In this document: in pieces, positions 10,891 to 52,596 of the stretch | How positions within the stretch are numbered: the stretch's first letter is position 1 | Layout: every line of letters starts with the position of its first letter | From: Desulfogranum japonicum DSM 18378 | Lineage (GTDB): Bacteria > Desulfobacterota > Desulfobulbia > Desulfobulbales > Desulfobulbaceae | DNA length: 64,000 bases | Assembly: GCF_000429945.1 (NCBI RefSeq) | Contig: NZ_AUCV01000003.1 | Coordinates: 62,001 to 126,000 of the forward strand | Direction: 5' to 3' | Notes under the pieces: generated by a model | Seen by the model: the letters and a program-made list of their open reading frames with translations, nothing else | Told to the model about the DNA's origin: nothing | Database searches by the model: none | Made by a program: the position numbers and the translations under genes

Positions 10891-11040
10891 GCTAAGAGTC
10901 TGTCGGAGAATGCTCTTTTTTCCCATATTTGTGTTGTTTTCAGAAAATCAATGCTCGCAATATCAACTGTATGGCTGTGCTTTATTTCCTGAATATACCT
11001 TAATCTGAGAAAAAATAGCTTTTTCCGACAGACTCCTAGC
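10891..11040. mobile_element. MITE-like element, family R2, copy 1
   Basis: 150-bp element bounded by imperfect 23-bp terminal inverted repeats sharing AGTCTGTCGGA (10896-10906 and its inverse near 11025-11035). The interior is repeated at 50701-50801 with about 80-85% identity by eye (shared words CTCGCAAT, CAACTGTATGG, TAATCTG, CAGACTC). It has no coding capacity. Two related copies 40 kb apart, plus terminal repeats, indicate a non-autonomous mobile element. Confidence 0.65.
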
Positions 11041-23980: not shown

Positions 23981-24119
23981 TTATACCTCTTGTCCAATTA
24001 TCATATCAAAAGACAACCCGGATGTTATGAATAAAATAAAAATTTTCTGGCTGTTGGGTCAGGGAAAGAGGTTTTGTATTCAGGCCGGAATTTATTTTGA
24101 GTACACTGTGAAAAATTTA

Positions 24120-24276
24120 GGGTTGCGGAAAATAATACATATCCAAAAAAAGCGTAGGATATCGGGTTGATAAGTAGCATCAATGGTTCCATACTGGCCG
24201 TATTGAGCCATTGACACTACCACGTTACCGGGTGGAGAGACAAGCAAGATGGGATAATTTATTTTTTCCGTGCCCC
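24120..24276 (-). mobile_element. MITE-like palindromic element, family R3, copy 1 (inverted)
   Basis: 157 bp with terminal repeats GGGTTGCGGAAAA at 24120-24132 and TTTTTTCCGTGCCCC at 24262-24276. The core word CAATGGTTCCATACTGGCC is the inverse of the core in the copies at 31706 and 52410. The interior arms are more diverged than in the other copies. No coding capacity. Confidence 0.65.
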
Positions 24277-24450
24277 TTCTCTTATCTCTGATTTTGGTTG
24301 TCTGAAAAAATCGTTTGAAATGGGGGGCTGTTTTGTCCTTCGGTTTTGAGGGTGCTCTGAAAAATGCAATTGATTATGATTATTATTTCTATAATTAAGC
24401 TTGTGCGATTATAAAATGACCTTACAGTGCAATATAATGATCTTGCGGGC

Positions 24451-31503: not shown

Positions 31504-31705
31504 GAAAAGTATGAAGGCTATGAAAACGAAAAGGGCATATTGAGTTTTTATGTAATATTGAGTGGATATCTAACATAGAGTGTGGGCTGGAAGCAAGATG
31601 AAAGTGAACATTTATCTTTCATTGGCTGTTTGTGAGTAGCAAGCCTTGAGTAGGGGCTCCATAACTGATCATGGACACTCCATGAAGTCTGCCGTTGGTC
31701 TCTTA

Positions 31706-31868
31706 GGGGCACGGAAAGAACAAATTATCCAATCCTGCTTGTCTCTCAACTCGGTAACGTCGTCGCGTCAATGGCTCAATACGGCCAGTATGGAACCATT
31801 GACGCGACAACGTTACCAAACCGATACCCTACGCAATTTTTGGATATTTATTTTTATTCTGATCACCG
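31706..31868 (+). mobile_element. MITE-like palindromic element, family R3, copy 2
   Basis: About 160 bp, starting GGGGCACGGAAAG. The core has arms GTAACGTCGTCGCGTCAATG and its near-perfect inverse around CAATACGGCCAGTATGG. The right terminal repeat is degraded. It is about 90% identical by eye to the copy at 52410-52570. The 31504-32102 gap contains this and nothing else recognisable, apart from the promoter of the gene at 32103. Confidence 0.7.
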
Positions 31869-46468: not shown

Positions 46469-46942
46469 ATGAAAAGATCATCTTCAGAGTTAAAAGTAGC
46501 CGTTACTGTATGGGGAGACAGGGTTTCCCCTGTTTTTGATGCTGCCAGAACTCTGCTGATAGCTGAAATCAACAATACAAAGATTATCCACACTTATTAT
46601 TTGCCTTTTATGCCTGAGCCTGTTTCCCAGTGCGTCCGTGTACTACAGGCTGAAGAGGTTGTGGTACTGATCTGTGGTGCTGTATCACAGGAACCAGCCG
46701 ATGCCCTGGAGGCAGCTGGGTTGGAAGTGATACCTTTTATTACAGGTAATATCGGCGTTATTCTGGAAAATCTGGTTGCTGGTTGTCAGGAATGGACAGC
46801 ATTGAAGATGCCTGGATGTGCGAGAACTGTTTGCTGCCGGGGTAGGATACGGAAAGGATCAGGGCAGACACAGAAGGTATCTGAAACAGGAACGACGATG
46901 AAAAGACAAAAACGGGATGCGACTGGACCACGGCGTAGTTGA
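46469..46942 (+). CDS. NifX/NifB-type Fe-Mo cofactor-binding family protein with basic tail
   Basis: 157 residues. The first ~105 form the dinitrogenase iron-molybdenum cofactor-binding fold (VAVTVWGDRVSPVFDAARTLLIAEI; VVVLICGAVSQEPADALEAAG). They are followed by a Cys- and Arg/Lys-rich tail (CARTVCCRGRIRKG) not usual in the family. First gene after the sigma-54 promoter. Family members carry Mo/Fe-S or Mo-Cu clusters; ORP of Desulfovibrio is one. Confidence 0.82.
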   Translation: MKRSSSELKVAVTVWGDRVSPVFDAARTLLIAEINNTKIIHTYYLPFMPEPVSQCVRVLQAEEVVVLICGAVSQEPADALEAAGLEVIPFITGNIGVILENLVAGCQEWTALKMPGCARTVCCRGRIRKGSGQTQKVSETGTTMKRQKRDATGPRRS

Positions 46943-48274: not shown

Positions 48275-49179
48275 TTAATGAACTGGTAATCGTCAGCGGC
48301 AAGGGTGGGACCGGTAAAACAAGCTTGACCGCTGCTTTCAGTGCTCTTGCCAAAGGCACGGTTCTGTGCGATGCCGATGTGGATGCTGCAGATATGCATC
48401 TTTTGATGCAGCCGAAGATATGTCAAACAACGGATTTCATGGGTGGAGGGCAGGCATGCGTTGACCCTCAGGTTTGTACGCAGTGCGGTACTTGCAGAGA
48501 TGTGTGTCGCTTTGGGGCAATTGACGAGACATTTACCGTTCAGCCTATTTTGTGTGAAGGTTGCGGGGTATGCGTTGATATGTGTCCGGAGAAGGCGATC
48601 GGTTTTGAGCCGCAAAAGTGTGGGGAATGGTACTTGTCGGATTGTAAATACGGCCCCATGGTGCATGCACGTCTGGGTATTGCAGAAGAAAACTCCGGCA
48701 AGCTGGTCAGTCTGGTGAGAAAAGAGGCCAGAAATCTTGCAGAACAGAAAGGCTACGGACTTATTCTTACAGATGGACCTCCGGGAATAGGCTGCCCGGT
48801 GATTGCCTCCCTTAGCGGTGCAACTGCATTATTGATAGTTGTAGAACCAACAGTTTCTGGTATTCACGATATGCTGCGAGTTGCAGAACTTGCATCCCAT
48901 TTCAAGCTTCCTGGCATGCTCTGCATTAACAAATTTGATTTAAATCCAGAAATGAGCGATAAAATTGCAGATATTGGTCAGAAACACAATATGCCCGTTG
49001 TCGGACGTATTCCCTTTGATTCCAGCTTTGTTCAAGCCATGGTAGCAGGGCAGAATATTTTTGAATATCAGCCGGAGTCACAACTTTCGAAAACAATTCA
49101 AAAAATATGGACCCAAATTATCGGATCCCCGGCCATGAATAGTATGGGCGTGCTGGATCTGCAATCAACAATCCGTTAA
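48271..49179 (+). CDS. MinD/Mrp-family ATPase with ferredoxin domain (second copy)
   Basis: 302 residues from ATG 48271, with GGAGG 8 bp upstream; the preceding in-frame codons overlap the previous gene and are unlikely to be used. Same plan as the first ATPase: SGKGGTGKTSLTAAF, Cys motifs CTQCGTCRDVCRFG and CEGCGVCVDMCPEKA, and TDGPPGIGCPV. Two different paralogues side by side imply a heterodimer. Confidence 0.9.
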   Translation: MINELVIVSGKGGTGKTSLTAAFSALAKGTVLCDADVDAADMHLLMQPKICQTTDFMGGGQACVDPQVCTQCGTCRDVCRFGAIDETFTVQPILCEGCGVCVDMCPEKAIGFEPQKCGEWYLSDCKYGPMVHARLGIAEENSGKLVSLVRKEARNLAEQKGYGLILTDGPPGIGCPVIASLSGATALLIVVEPTVSGIHDMLRVAELASHFKLPGMLCINKFDLNPEMSDKIADIGQKHNMPVVGRIPFDSSFVQAMVAGQNIFEYQPESQLSKTIQKIWTQIIGSPAMNSMGVLDLQSTIR

Positions 49180-49199
49180 ATCAGTAAAAAGGTACAAGT

Positions 49200-49583
49200 A
49201 TGGCAATATTGAGAGTGGCGATTCCGTCTTTGGGCGATGGTGGTTTGGATGGTAAGAGAGCAGGGCATTTCGGTCACTGTGATGTATTCACCTTTATTGA
49301 TCTGGAGGATGGTGAAATCAAAGAAATAACAACCCTCCAAAATAAAGAGCACGTACAGGGCGGTTGTATGGTTCCTGTAAACTTGCTTGCTGAAAATAAG
49401 GTAAACGCCCTGGTGGTTGGCGGCATTGGTATGCGTCCTCTTATGGGGTTTCGTTCAGTAGGTATTGACGTGTATCACGATGCTGTCCGCGCAGACATTC
49501 GTCCTGTAGTTGAAGATTTCATTGCCGGTAAACTGCCGATGATTACCGATAACGATGTGTGCGGCGGAGGATCTGCACATTGA
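49200..49583 (+). CDS. NifX-type cofactor-binding protein (second copy)
   Basis: 127 residues with a HFGHCDVFTFIDLEDGEI block and GGIGMRPLMGF, the NifX/MTH1175-like fold, ending in a short GGGSAH tail. It contains a Cys in GGCMVPVNLL. It starts 20 bp after the second ATPase and is followed by the structured 49588-49701 element. Confidence 0.87.
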   Translation: MAILRVAIPSLGDGGLDGKRAGHFGHCDVFTFIDLEDGEIKEITTLQNKEHVQGGCMVPVNLLAENKVNALVVGGIGMRPLMGFRSVGIDVYHDAVRADIRPVVEDFIAGKLPMITDNDVCGGGSAH

Positions 49584-49587
49584 GATT

Positions 49588-49701
49588 GTATCCACCTGCA
49601 GGATTTTTCTGATATTAAATTTCAGAGTTTCTCCTACCTCGGAACTGAAGTTCCCCCTTACCGCCATCGGGTTGGCGGTTGTTGTTCCTGCGGGTGGGTA
49701 C
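49588..49701 (+). ncRNA. Candidate structured RNA leader (multibranched) upstream of third NifX gene
   Basis: A 16-bp closing stem pairs 49588-49603 with 49686-49701 with no mismatch when G-U pairs are allowed. The two G-U pairs are possible only in plus-strand RNA. Inside lie three hairpins: TCTGA/TCAGA (49608-49626), GGAAC-TGAA-GTTCC (49641-49654) and ACCGCCA-TCGGGT-TGGCGGT (49660-49679). It begins 4 nt after the previous stop and ends 10 nt before the ribosome site AAGAGGAAAA of the gene at 49725. The layout suits a cis-regulatory RNA or processing/stability element; I do not recognise it as a known riboswitch class. Confidence 0.45.
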
Positions 49702-49724
49702 AGTACGTATAAGAGGAAAATATT

Positions 49725-50084
49725 ATGAAAATTGCAGTGACAGCAAAAGGTGCCACGCTGGATAGCGATGTGGATCCCCGGTTTGGACGGGCAAGCTATA
49801 TCGTCATGGTTGATACGGAAACCATGGAAAATGAAGCACTGGATAACAGCGTAAATGTCAATGCGTTCAAAGGTGCAGGCATTCAGGCTGCAACGATGAT
49901 AGCTGATCGCGGGGCAGAGGTGTTATGCACTGGTTATTGCGGGCCCAAGGCTTTTCAAACATTACAGGCTGCGGGGGTGAAGGTGGTAAGTGATGTAGCA
50001 GGCACTGTGCGTGAGGCTGTCGAACTGATGAAGAGTGGAGATGTGCAGTACACTGAATCAGCTAACGCCGAGGCCCATTGGTAA
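49725..50084 (+). CDS. NifX/ORP-like cofactor-binding protein (third copy)
   Basis: 119 residues of the MTH1175/ORP type: IAVTAKGATLDSDVDPRFGR, GAGIQAATMIADRGAEVLCT, GYCGPKAFQTLQAAG, ending in basic/acidic residues without the tail of the first copy. By size and fold this is the closest match in the cluster to Desulfovibrio orange protein, which holds a Mo-Cu sulfide cluster. ATG 49725 follows AAGAGGAAAA. Confidence 0.85.
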   Translation: MKIAVTAKGATLDSDVDPRFGRASYIVMVDTETMENEALDNSVNVNAFKGAGIQAATMIADRGAEVLCTGYCGPKAFQTLQAAGVKVVSDVAGTVREAVELMKSGDVQYTESANAEAHW

Positions 50085-50131
50085 TGGAACGTAGGGATGC
50101 TTGTATAAAAATGTAGAGAAGGTGTTCTATT

Positions 50132-50575
50132 ATGGATGATGCGCAGTTTCACGCTATGGTTGATTCCATCCAGGAGAAGGTGTTTCAGGACGCTGAAGAA
50201 GCTTATGGGGCTGTCGGGTTTGACCGTTGGCGTAACCCCAGGTTTAATGGCGTCATTGATATTCCGGATGCAACCGGCTGTATCACCGGTGATTGCGGGG
50301 ATACTATGAAGATTTTTCTGCAGTTTGAGCAGGATACGGTAAGTAATGCTTCCTATATAACTGACGGGTGTGCATCCAGCAGTATCTGCGGCTCATTTGC
50401 AGCCGAGATGGCCATAGGCAAAACCATTGAGCAAATATTTGATCTCACAGGAGACGATATACTCAATCACCTGGGACAGTTTCCGAAAAATGAGACACAT
50501 TGTGCCTTTTTGGCTGTAAAAACGCTGCAGGAAGCAGTGAATCAATACATGATCAAGCAAACACGGCAGAAGTAA
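50132..50575 (+). CDS. IscU/NifU-like iron-sulfur scaffold protein
   Basis: 147 residues matching the NifU N-terminal scaffold, with cysteines in CITGDCGDTMKIFLQF, ITDGCASSSICGSFAAEM and a final Cys (ETHCAFLAVKTLQ). Normally three conserved Cys and an Asp hold the nascent [2Fe-2S]; those positions are present here. It is the last gene of the ORP-like operon, 47 bp after the previous, and is not part of the Desulfovibrio ORP operons as I remember them. Confidence 0.85.
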   Translation: MDDAQFHAMVDSIQEKVFQDAEEAYGAVGFDRWRNPRFNGVIDIPDATGCITGDCGDTMKIFLQFEQDTVSNASYITDGCASSSICGSFAAEMAIGKTIEQIFDLTGDDILNHLGQFPKNETHCAFLAVKTLQEAVNQYMIKQTRQK

Positions 50576-50687: not shown

Positions 50688-50803
50688 GTCTCGCCTGGAT
50701 TTTTCAGAAAGACAATACTCGCAATGCCAACTGTATGGCCGTGCCTAATTCCCTGAAAATACCATAATCTGCGAAAAAATAACAACTTTCCCACAGACTC
50801 TTC
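50688..50803. mobile_element. MITE-like element, family R2, copy 2 (degraded)
   Basis: Homologous to 10925-11035 through CTCGCAAT, CAACTGTATGGC, CCTGAA and AATCTGCGAAAAAATA, and ends with CCCACAGACTC. Its left terminal repeat is lost or merged with the terminator at 50631-50671. Confidence 0.55.
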
Positions 50804-51121: not shown

Positions 51122-51170
51122 GAAATCCTAATTTATGACGCTGTCTTTATTTTTGTTGTGCTCGATAATA

Positions 51171-51292
51171 CAGGTTGATACCAAGGCAGGGAGGGGGTGT
51201 AAGGAGTTCTTTGAAGTGATAAATTGGAGAAGCATCACAGAGAAAATCAGCTGTGTTCCAAGAGTCATCAAACCTGCCCTGGTATCAACCTG
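51171..51292. repeat. Long-arm hairpin 3 of 3
   Basis: CAGGTTGATACCAAGGCAGG (51171-51190) is inverted at 51273-51292 with one mismatch. The loop begins GAGGGGGTGTAAGGAG, again G-rich at its 5' side. The rest of the 50576-51686 gap (51300-51686) shows only the promoter-proximal sequence of the DUF2284 gene, with ribosome site GGTGGGG. Confidence 0.6.
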
Positions 51293-51686
51293 GATTATAT
51301 ATTTCAGCACTATTGTCGTAGTTTACCTCCCGGTTACATACATGACAAATATTCGTATATATAAATGTTACGACACATTTTACAGTTTGTGAAGAGAATC
51401 ACTCTCATTTGTGATCCTTTCTTCTGAGACCTTTTAGCATATCACGCACAGTTTGCATAGTGAAAATGTGCTTTTGTGCATTTTTTCTTTTTTAAACTTC
51501 TTGTTGAGATGCGTAGAGCAAGGCTCTTGGTTCTCTGCCCGCCGTTGCTGTTGCTATCAAAATGCTCTTGTGATACTCTTTTAGGCATTTCAGCTTCCAA
51601 ATTATCTTTTCGCCCTGACAATGAAACGTTTGTGCTTTTTCCTTTGCGGGGCAAAATGACATACATTACGCACAAGGTGGGGTAAA

Positions 51687-52286: not shown

Positions 52287-52409
52287 GGCTTTTCTCAGGT
52301 TTTGCGAATTTATCAATGCAATTTCCCTTGCATTGCTGACTACCGTCTGACCTTAACAATACCGTGAAACGTCCCTGAAAACAGGTCGTTTTCAGGGATG
52401 TTTACCTAA

Positions 52410-52570
52410 GGGTCACGGAAAAAATGCATTATCCAATCTTACTTATCTTTCAACTCGGTAACGTCGTCGCGTCAATGGCTCAATACGGCCAGTATGGAAC
52501 CATTGGCGCGACGACGTTACCAAGCCGATATCCTACGCAATTTTTGGATATTTATTCTTTTCCGCGACCC
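52410..52570 (+). mobile_element. MITE-like palindromic element, family R3, copy 3 (best preserved)
   Basis: 161 bp with terminal repeats GGGTCACGGAAAA / TTTTCCGCGACCC. The inner arms GTAACGTCGTCGCGTCAATG and their near-perfect inverse surround CAATACGGCCAGTATGG. It is flanked by TAA on both sides, a possible 3-bp target duplication. It fills most of the 52287-52596 gap. Confidence 0.75.
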
Positions 52571-52596
52571 TAATTGGCCCTTCAGAAGTGGTAATT

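Follow-up and report, generated by a model that had tools for sequence, protein, structure and literature searches.

The window, as we call the whole 64,000-nucleotide stretch of DNA analysed here, contains a cluster of genes in which a short intercistronic segment lies between two genes of the NifX family (PF02579), as an earlier note on this DNA had proposed. The upstream gene, nifX1 (49200..49583, + strand), matches PF02579 with an E-value of 7e-18, and its best match among solved structures is PH0822 (2yx6); other NifX-like proteins match it better than the orange protein (ORP) does. The downstream gene (49725..50084, + strand; PF02579, E 6.7e-21) is ORP-like, again in agreement with the earlier note, since the best match of its product among solved structures is the ORP of D. 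gigas (2wfb, E 7.4e-29), and is termed orp. Reading towards nifX1, the cluster consists of a gene for a sigma54 activator, a NifX-family gene, a short response-regulator-like gene that stays just below the Pfam cut-off and two genes for P-loop ATPases with ferredoxin domains; nifX1 is followed by the element described below, by orp and by a NifU_N gene. The third NifX-family gene of the cluster is at 46469-46942, and by eye the C-terminal tail of its product seems basic. Moreover, a second orp-like gene, 43% identical, is present elsewhere in the same genome (G000:C27:896-1210). ORP contains a Mo-Cu cluster of an unusual kind, and we know of no settled function for this protein. No sigma-70-like promoter was found within 49150-50150. 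The gene neighbourhood resembles the sigma54/IHF-controlled orp cluster of Desulfovibrio vulgaris, and the accessible part of the corresponding study reports that the orp operons of this species are controlled at transcription start via sigma54, DVU2106 and IHF (PMC3897727).

The intercistronic segment 49588-49701 (114 nt) folds with a minimum free energy of -51.0 kcal/mol (z -7.19), and none of 200 dinucleotide shuffles is equally stable. The fold reproduces the 16-bp closing stem and the three internal hairpins described in the earlier note. On the + strand, the closing stem, P1, pairs 49588..49603 with 49686..49701 and encloses the hairpins P2 (49607..49627; 49607-49612 with 49622-49627), P3 (49641..49654; 49641-49645 with 49650-49654) and P4 (49660..49679). 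P4 is present in the genome of the window and in one relative (G005) only, and is followed by a U-rich TGTTGTT which a consensus scan called terminator-like. The ribosome site of orp indeed lies just past the element: P1 ends at 49701, 11 nt before the sequence GAGG (49713..49716, + strand), which is outside P1, and the start codon is at 49725. The opposite strand of the segment folds less stably (-41.9 kcal/mol, z -4.75). The window's copy has two U-G pairs within P1, and over the six species that carry the element P1 contains seven G-U cells on the + strand and two A-C cells, which are G-U on the - strand only. When the whole gap between the two genes is folded, z is -5.47 in the own genome, -4.33 in G005, -3.57 in G003, -5.05 in G002, -2.12 in G001 and -5.77 in G006, where the gap includes a further palindrome. 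This long palindrome with T-runs follows the element of D. mediterraneum at about 3495-3723 of L046, in a gap of 339 nt.

The element is found once in each of six of the seven Desulfogranum genomes examined, and the two NifX-family genes that flank it are the same every time. The carriers are the own genome, G001, G002 (Desulfogranum marinum DSM 2058), G003, G005 and G006 (D. mediterraneum DSM 13871). The gap sequences of G002 and G006 are those of the two named strains. In the remaining genome, G004, the gap measures 52 nt and is without the element. Because G004 lies inside the genus in the protein tree, as the sister of G006 (support 92, or 44 with fewer genes), the element has probably been lost there. 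A covariance model of the element, R1, recovers it once in every carrier. In genome-wide searches with R1, done with Infernal's stricter filters, the other 66 of the 73 genomes of the family gave six weak hits (E 0.105-0.672), the other 250 of the 257 genomes of the order a single marginal one (G213, E 0.0104); among 395 genomes sampled from the phylum, only the own genome and G006 were matched. The hit in G213 was dismissed as chance, since no core was seen on reading, and a further match in the own genome (C5, E 0.66) was rejected as it lies inside a coding gene. Three more weak model hits have E-values of 2.5-4.4, and the opposite strand of two of the elements also scored weakly, as is expected from a palindromic stem. 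The earlier note had named a lack of conservation in relatives as grounds for rejecting its proposal, and the outcome favours the note: sequence and pairing are kept in Desulfogranum. However, such conservation was seen in this one genus only and not across the Desulfobulbales. Finally, the reading frame of nifX1 stays open for 42 codons behind its TGA in the window, up to the TAA at 49710-49712, and is also open in G003. Selenocysteine read-through of this TGA was rejected because by eye the frame closes within 5-27 codons in G001, G002, G005 and G006.

To place these gaps among those of other relatives, 84 nifX1-orp loci were measured (that of the window, 80 in relatives, and L020, L021 and L023), of which four were dropped for want of the second gene and one for a negative gap, leaving 79 loci with seven from the genus. 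The gap is 30 nt or shorter at 44 of these 79 loci, all 44 being among the 72 outside the genus. At L043 and L048, which lie outside the genus in the protein tree, nifX1 is as similar as within the genus and the gap is 23 nt. Outside the genus, 14 gaps measure 60-400 nt, and six of these (L092, L020, L023, L074, L081 and L114) contain stable hairpins unrelated to the element (z -2.49 to -4.68), which hints that barriers are frequent at the nifX1-orp junction.

In a hand alignment of P1 over the six species, 85 of 87 cells are paired and compensatory changes are found at 8 of the 16 positions; this alignment was fitted to the structure and hence leans towards it, and two of its members, G002 and G003, are close relatives. 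In a program alignment of P1 and P3, 92.2% of 90 cells are paired, 11 cells are changed on both sides, and the covariation score is 0.392, compared to 0.050-0.169 for slid partners. Of the five measures applied to P1 and P3 in this alignment, two are unremarkable with six sequences: 98 of 500 shuffles have as many pairs changed on both sides as were observed, and 482 of 500 as many pair types. In G001, G002, G003 and G006 the 3' strand of P1 is followed, with no or one A in between, by T7-T9, which gives these four species the G+C-rich stem and direct U-tract of an intrinsic terminator. Neither G005 nor the window's copy has such a U-tract directly after P1, and intrinsic termination is therefore not a function common to all six carriers. 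Moreover, P1 encloses 57-84 nt in place of the short loop of a terminator; as the terminator scans were limited to loops of 3-8, they are uninformative on P1. The earlier note had argued that the element acts as a transcript, and this is supported by the covariation, the wobble pairs, the U-tracts and the fold stability, the last three all on the + strand.

Enclosed by P1, a stretch of 25 nt (49621..49645, + strand) is identical in G006 and agrees with the window at 24 of its positions in G003, 23 in G002, 20 in G005 and 18 in G001. It comprises the 3' strand of P2 and the CU-rich core UUUCUCCUACCUC (49628..49640, + strand), for which the model of the window's copy gives an unpaired probability of 0.9-1.0. 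In the models the core is mostly unpaired in four of the six species (own, G006, G003 and G002), partly paired in G005, and in G001 largely paired in its 3' half. The inner hairpins are less regular. The placement of P2 is inconsistent across species, so that its cross-species pairing is uncertain, and P3 has one pair changed on both sides and broken pairs in G005 (2/5) and G001 (3/5). An alternative pairing of P1a with the core, before P1 is complete, was rejected as inconsistent over the species; it consists of AGGA/UCCU in the model of the own copy and of a longer pairing, seen by eye only, in G006.

The longest run identical to the window is 25 nt in G006 (up to 10 nt in 100 shuffles) and 24 nt in G003 (up to 9 nt); in G005 (12, shuffles 9) and G001 (6, shuffles 11) it is hardly or not above shuffles. 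Over five lineages the mean pairwise identity is 0.82 in the conserved region, compared to 0.72 in P1b, 0.59 in P1a and 0.47-0.51 in the other parts, and conservation is thus mainly found on one contiguous strand. In the flanking genes, four-fold sites show only 25-40% identity between lineages and are thus saturated (70% between G002 and G003). A degenerate 18-mer of the core, with at most one mismatch, matches nothing but the element in the own genome, G001, G002, G003 and G006, and two further places in G005; over 57 genomes the count is 48 places, including the element itself six times, compared to 14 for the reversed control. None of the places other than the element is supported by the covariance model, and coding bias may explain them. 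No conserved short peptide over the core was seen by eye. Since both the pairing of P1 and the 25-nt stretch are kept despite saturated four-fold sites, the element is, as judged from the sequences, a structured RNA under selection rather than a mobile repeat.

Other repeats do occur in the window. A family of palindromic repeats of about 170 nt is represented at 24117-24278, 31702-31855 and 52406-52573, and at at least 39 other places of the own genome with 90-95% identity (at least 76 matches counting both strands; 40 of 267 candidates scored); it is probably a non-autonomous mobile repeat. Two copies of a second, more diverged family, with 18 matches in the own genome, lie at 10891-11040, where the ends are inverted, and at 50690-50800, just behind the NifU gene of the orp operon. 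Finally, 51165-51298 is an inverted repeat with arms of 26 nt that are 92% complementary and 82 nt apart.

What does the element do? The reading with the most support, which we hold tentatively and at a little under an even chance, is that the element works in cis between the cistrons, as an attenuator or a barrier to processing that separates orp from the genes upstream, with the CU-rich strand as the docking site of a factor. The closed domain would form a barrier between the upstream ATPase and NifX genes and orp. In four species P1 and the U-tract might end part of the transcripts by attenuation. In the species of the window, which lacks the U-tract, the element could uncouple translation of nifX1 and orp and mark a boundary of processing or decay. 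A trans factor, either an RNA-binding protein or another RNA, would act on the CU-rich strand and decide whether the barrier holds, and as a result the level of orp would be set apart from that of its operon partners. Such a barrier is favoured by the single copy directly before orp in six of the seven genomes and by the compensatory changes that keep P1. Also in its favour are the 25-nt stretch kept at saturated distance, the U-tract in four species, the + strand bias of wobble pairs and stability, and the short gaps (30 nt or less) at 44 of the 72 loci outside the genus. Against it stand the U-tract missing in two carriers, the 57-84 nt enclosed by P1, the two unremarkable alignment measures, the inconsistent placement of P2, the damage to P3 in G005 and G001, and G004, which manages without the element. 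On the evidence of the compared sequences, the element probably controls how much orange protein is made.

The same conserved strand could instead belong to a small RNA that acts in trans and is released from the orp operon mRNA by cutting or termination, the core being a seed for the ribosome sites of other mRNAs. A conserved unpaired CU-rich stretch between variable stems is the pattern of alpha-r14, to go by the accessible part of PMC10746234, and four species have a terminator-like 3' end. We nevertheless consider a small RNA unlikely. Near-perfect matches in seven genomes, assessed partly by eye, reveal no shared target start site: GAGGTAGGAGAAA within one mismatch occurs at 33 places, four of which are the element itself (30 loci were read by eye), and its reversed control occurs at 126, a number that composition may explain. 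Of 21 places with AGGTAGGAG-N-ATG, 15 were read and no related proteins start there; the one place that is probably shared (L197, L200) is inside a long open frame. The lack of a sigma-70-like promoter in 49150-50150 also counts against it. Alternatively, the core might directly sequester the ribosome site of orp, being complementary to Shine-Dalgarno sequences in general and placed in a structure that ends 11 nt before GAGG. However, pairing between the core and the orp start region amounts to -5.1 to -7.6 kcal/mol in the six carriers, whereas the 67 relatives without the element reach a mean of -8.76 kcal/mol (sd 2.1), and 47 to 63 of these pair at least as well as carriers. Direct blocking of orp is disfavoured because of this weaker pairing in carriers, and we regard it as very improbable. 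Even less credible is a remnant of a mobile palindromic repeat (REP- or MITE-like). Large palindromic repeat families are indeed present in the same genome, but each carrier genome has the element once and at the same orthologous position, unrelated places lack it, and it shows compensatory changes at saturated distance. Neither plasmids nor phages gave a match to the element, and the main core variant is absent from viral contigs. The earlier note had pointed to copies at unrelated loci as the mark of a mobile repeat; no convincing case of such copies, or of several copies per genome, was seen in the own, genus and order genomes or in plasmids and phages.

Two further readings concern the fold as a whole. 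In a riboswitch the junction would bind a metal, molybdate or thiomolybdate, or another cofactor, stabilise P1, and thereby end transcription or change access to orp. A multibranched fold before a gene for a metal-cluster protein invites this view, and P1 with the U-tract in four of the six species could serve as an expression platform. Yet the highest conservation (identity 0.82) runs along a single contiguous strand, the fold of the window's copy lacks both a U-tract and a ribosome site, the element was seen in one genus and at one locus, and no Rfam riboswitch matched. With conservation mainly on one strand and no visible expression platform in the window's copy, a riboswitch would be odd. 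The sensing of a metal or cofactor, which the earlier note had thought plausible, is possible but gains no direct support here, and we judge a riboswitch in general to be quite unlikely; the note's other suggestion, an mRNA processing element, may hold. More specifically, the element could represent a new class of riboswitch-like RNAs whose aptamer uses its own closing stem as terminator and responds to the chemistry of the Mo-Cu-sulfur cluster or to the loading of ORP. This is a long shot; if true, it would offer a first clue to the function of ORP. Finally, P1 may be a plain mRNA stabiliser or spacer that blocks 3' exonucleases for the benefit of the upstream genes, with the core having no partner. 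The unrelated stable hairpins in the same gap elsewhere (6/14 non-Desulfogranum gaps of 60-400 nt) fit this explanation, but it leaves unaccounted for a CU-rich stretch kept at saturated distance and is in our view doubtful, a little more so than a riboswitch.

If the cis-acting barrier or another function after initiation applies, a selected RNA element before orp in Desulfogranum would add a second layer of control. It would complement the control at transcription start (sigma54, DVU2106, IHF) that the accessible part of PMC3897727 describes for Desulfovibrio vulgaris. Moreover, a covariance model now exists for a structured RNA without a match in Rfam 15.

The earlier note had recognised no published class in the element, and we concur, since no Rfam family matches it. 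At gathering scores Rfam has no match in the window, and a search of 49480-49800 that admitted E-values up to 5 found none either. With E-values up to 10 admitted, the loci of five relatives gave two matches to eukaryotic families, far under the cut-offs and outside the element. The riboswitch nearest by theme is the Moco RNA (RF01055), likewise a multistem-junction RNA before genes of molybdenum metabolism and, in the part of the source available, most conserved near the junction (PMC2408646). The element differs in being conserved mainly on one strand and in giving no covariance-model match: RF01055 matched neither the window, nor the element's own region, nor the loci of five relatives, and at E 0.01 it was found in none of the seven genus genomes and in both control genomes. 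Like intrinsic terminators and intercistronic attenuators, the element has a G+C-rich stem that in four of the six species leads into U7-9; unlike them, it encloses 57-84 nt with inner hairpins and a conserved stretch, and the window's copy lacks the U-tract. In the alpha-r14 or cuckoo anti-Shine-Dalgarno sRNAs (NfeR1), as far as the accessible text goes, an ultraconserved CU-rich motif lies in unpaired regions and the stems differ in sequence (PMC10746234). This combination is also seen in the element, most clearly in the own copy, G006, G003 and G002 and more weakly in G005 and G001. In contrast, alpha-r14 sRNAs are described there as having three hairpins, each with CCUCCUCCC, and their own regulated transcription; the element has no CCUCCUCCC in each of three hairpins but one CU-rich stretch of another sequence, inside an operon.

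Desulfotalea is a relative. A Desulfotalea-1 motif has been printed, without an Rfam accession, as a structured RNA candidate (table of PMC2864571, seen in part). It is a candidate of the same sort as the element, with which it was compared by its description only, in the part of the source at hand. The 'n' marks at its table entry presumably mean that it is not cis-regulatory. No published description of the element is among the matches listed, for a literature coverage that is thin on subscription journals. A further parallel is the L17 downstream element, which according to the accessible part of PMC2864571 lies in what may be the 3' UTRs of genes for ribosomal protein L17, its function being unknown. 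Like our element it is structured, lies behind a gene and was assigned a strand by an argument from G-U pairs, and it differs by the L17 gene context and the unrelated taxon (PMC2864571, same part). Thus, with Desulfotalea-1 compared by description only, the element before orp is a candidate for a new structured RNA of a known general kind, found in one genus.
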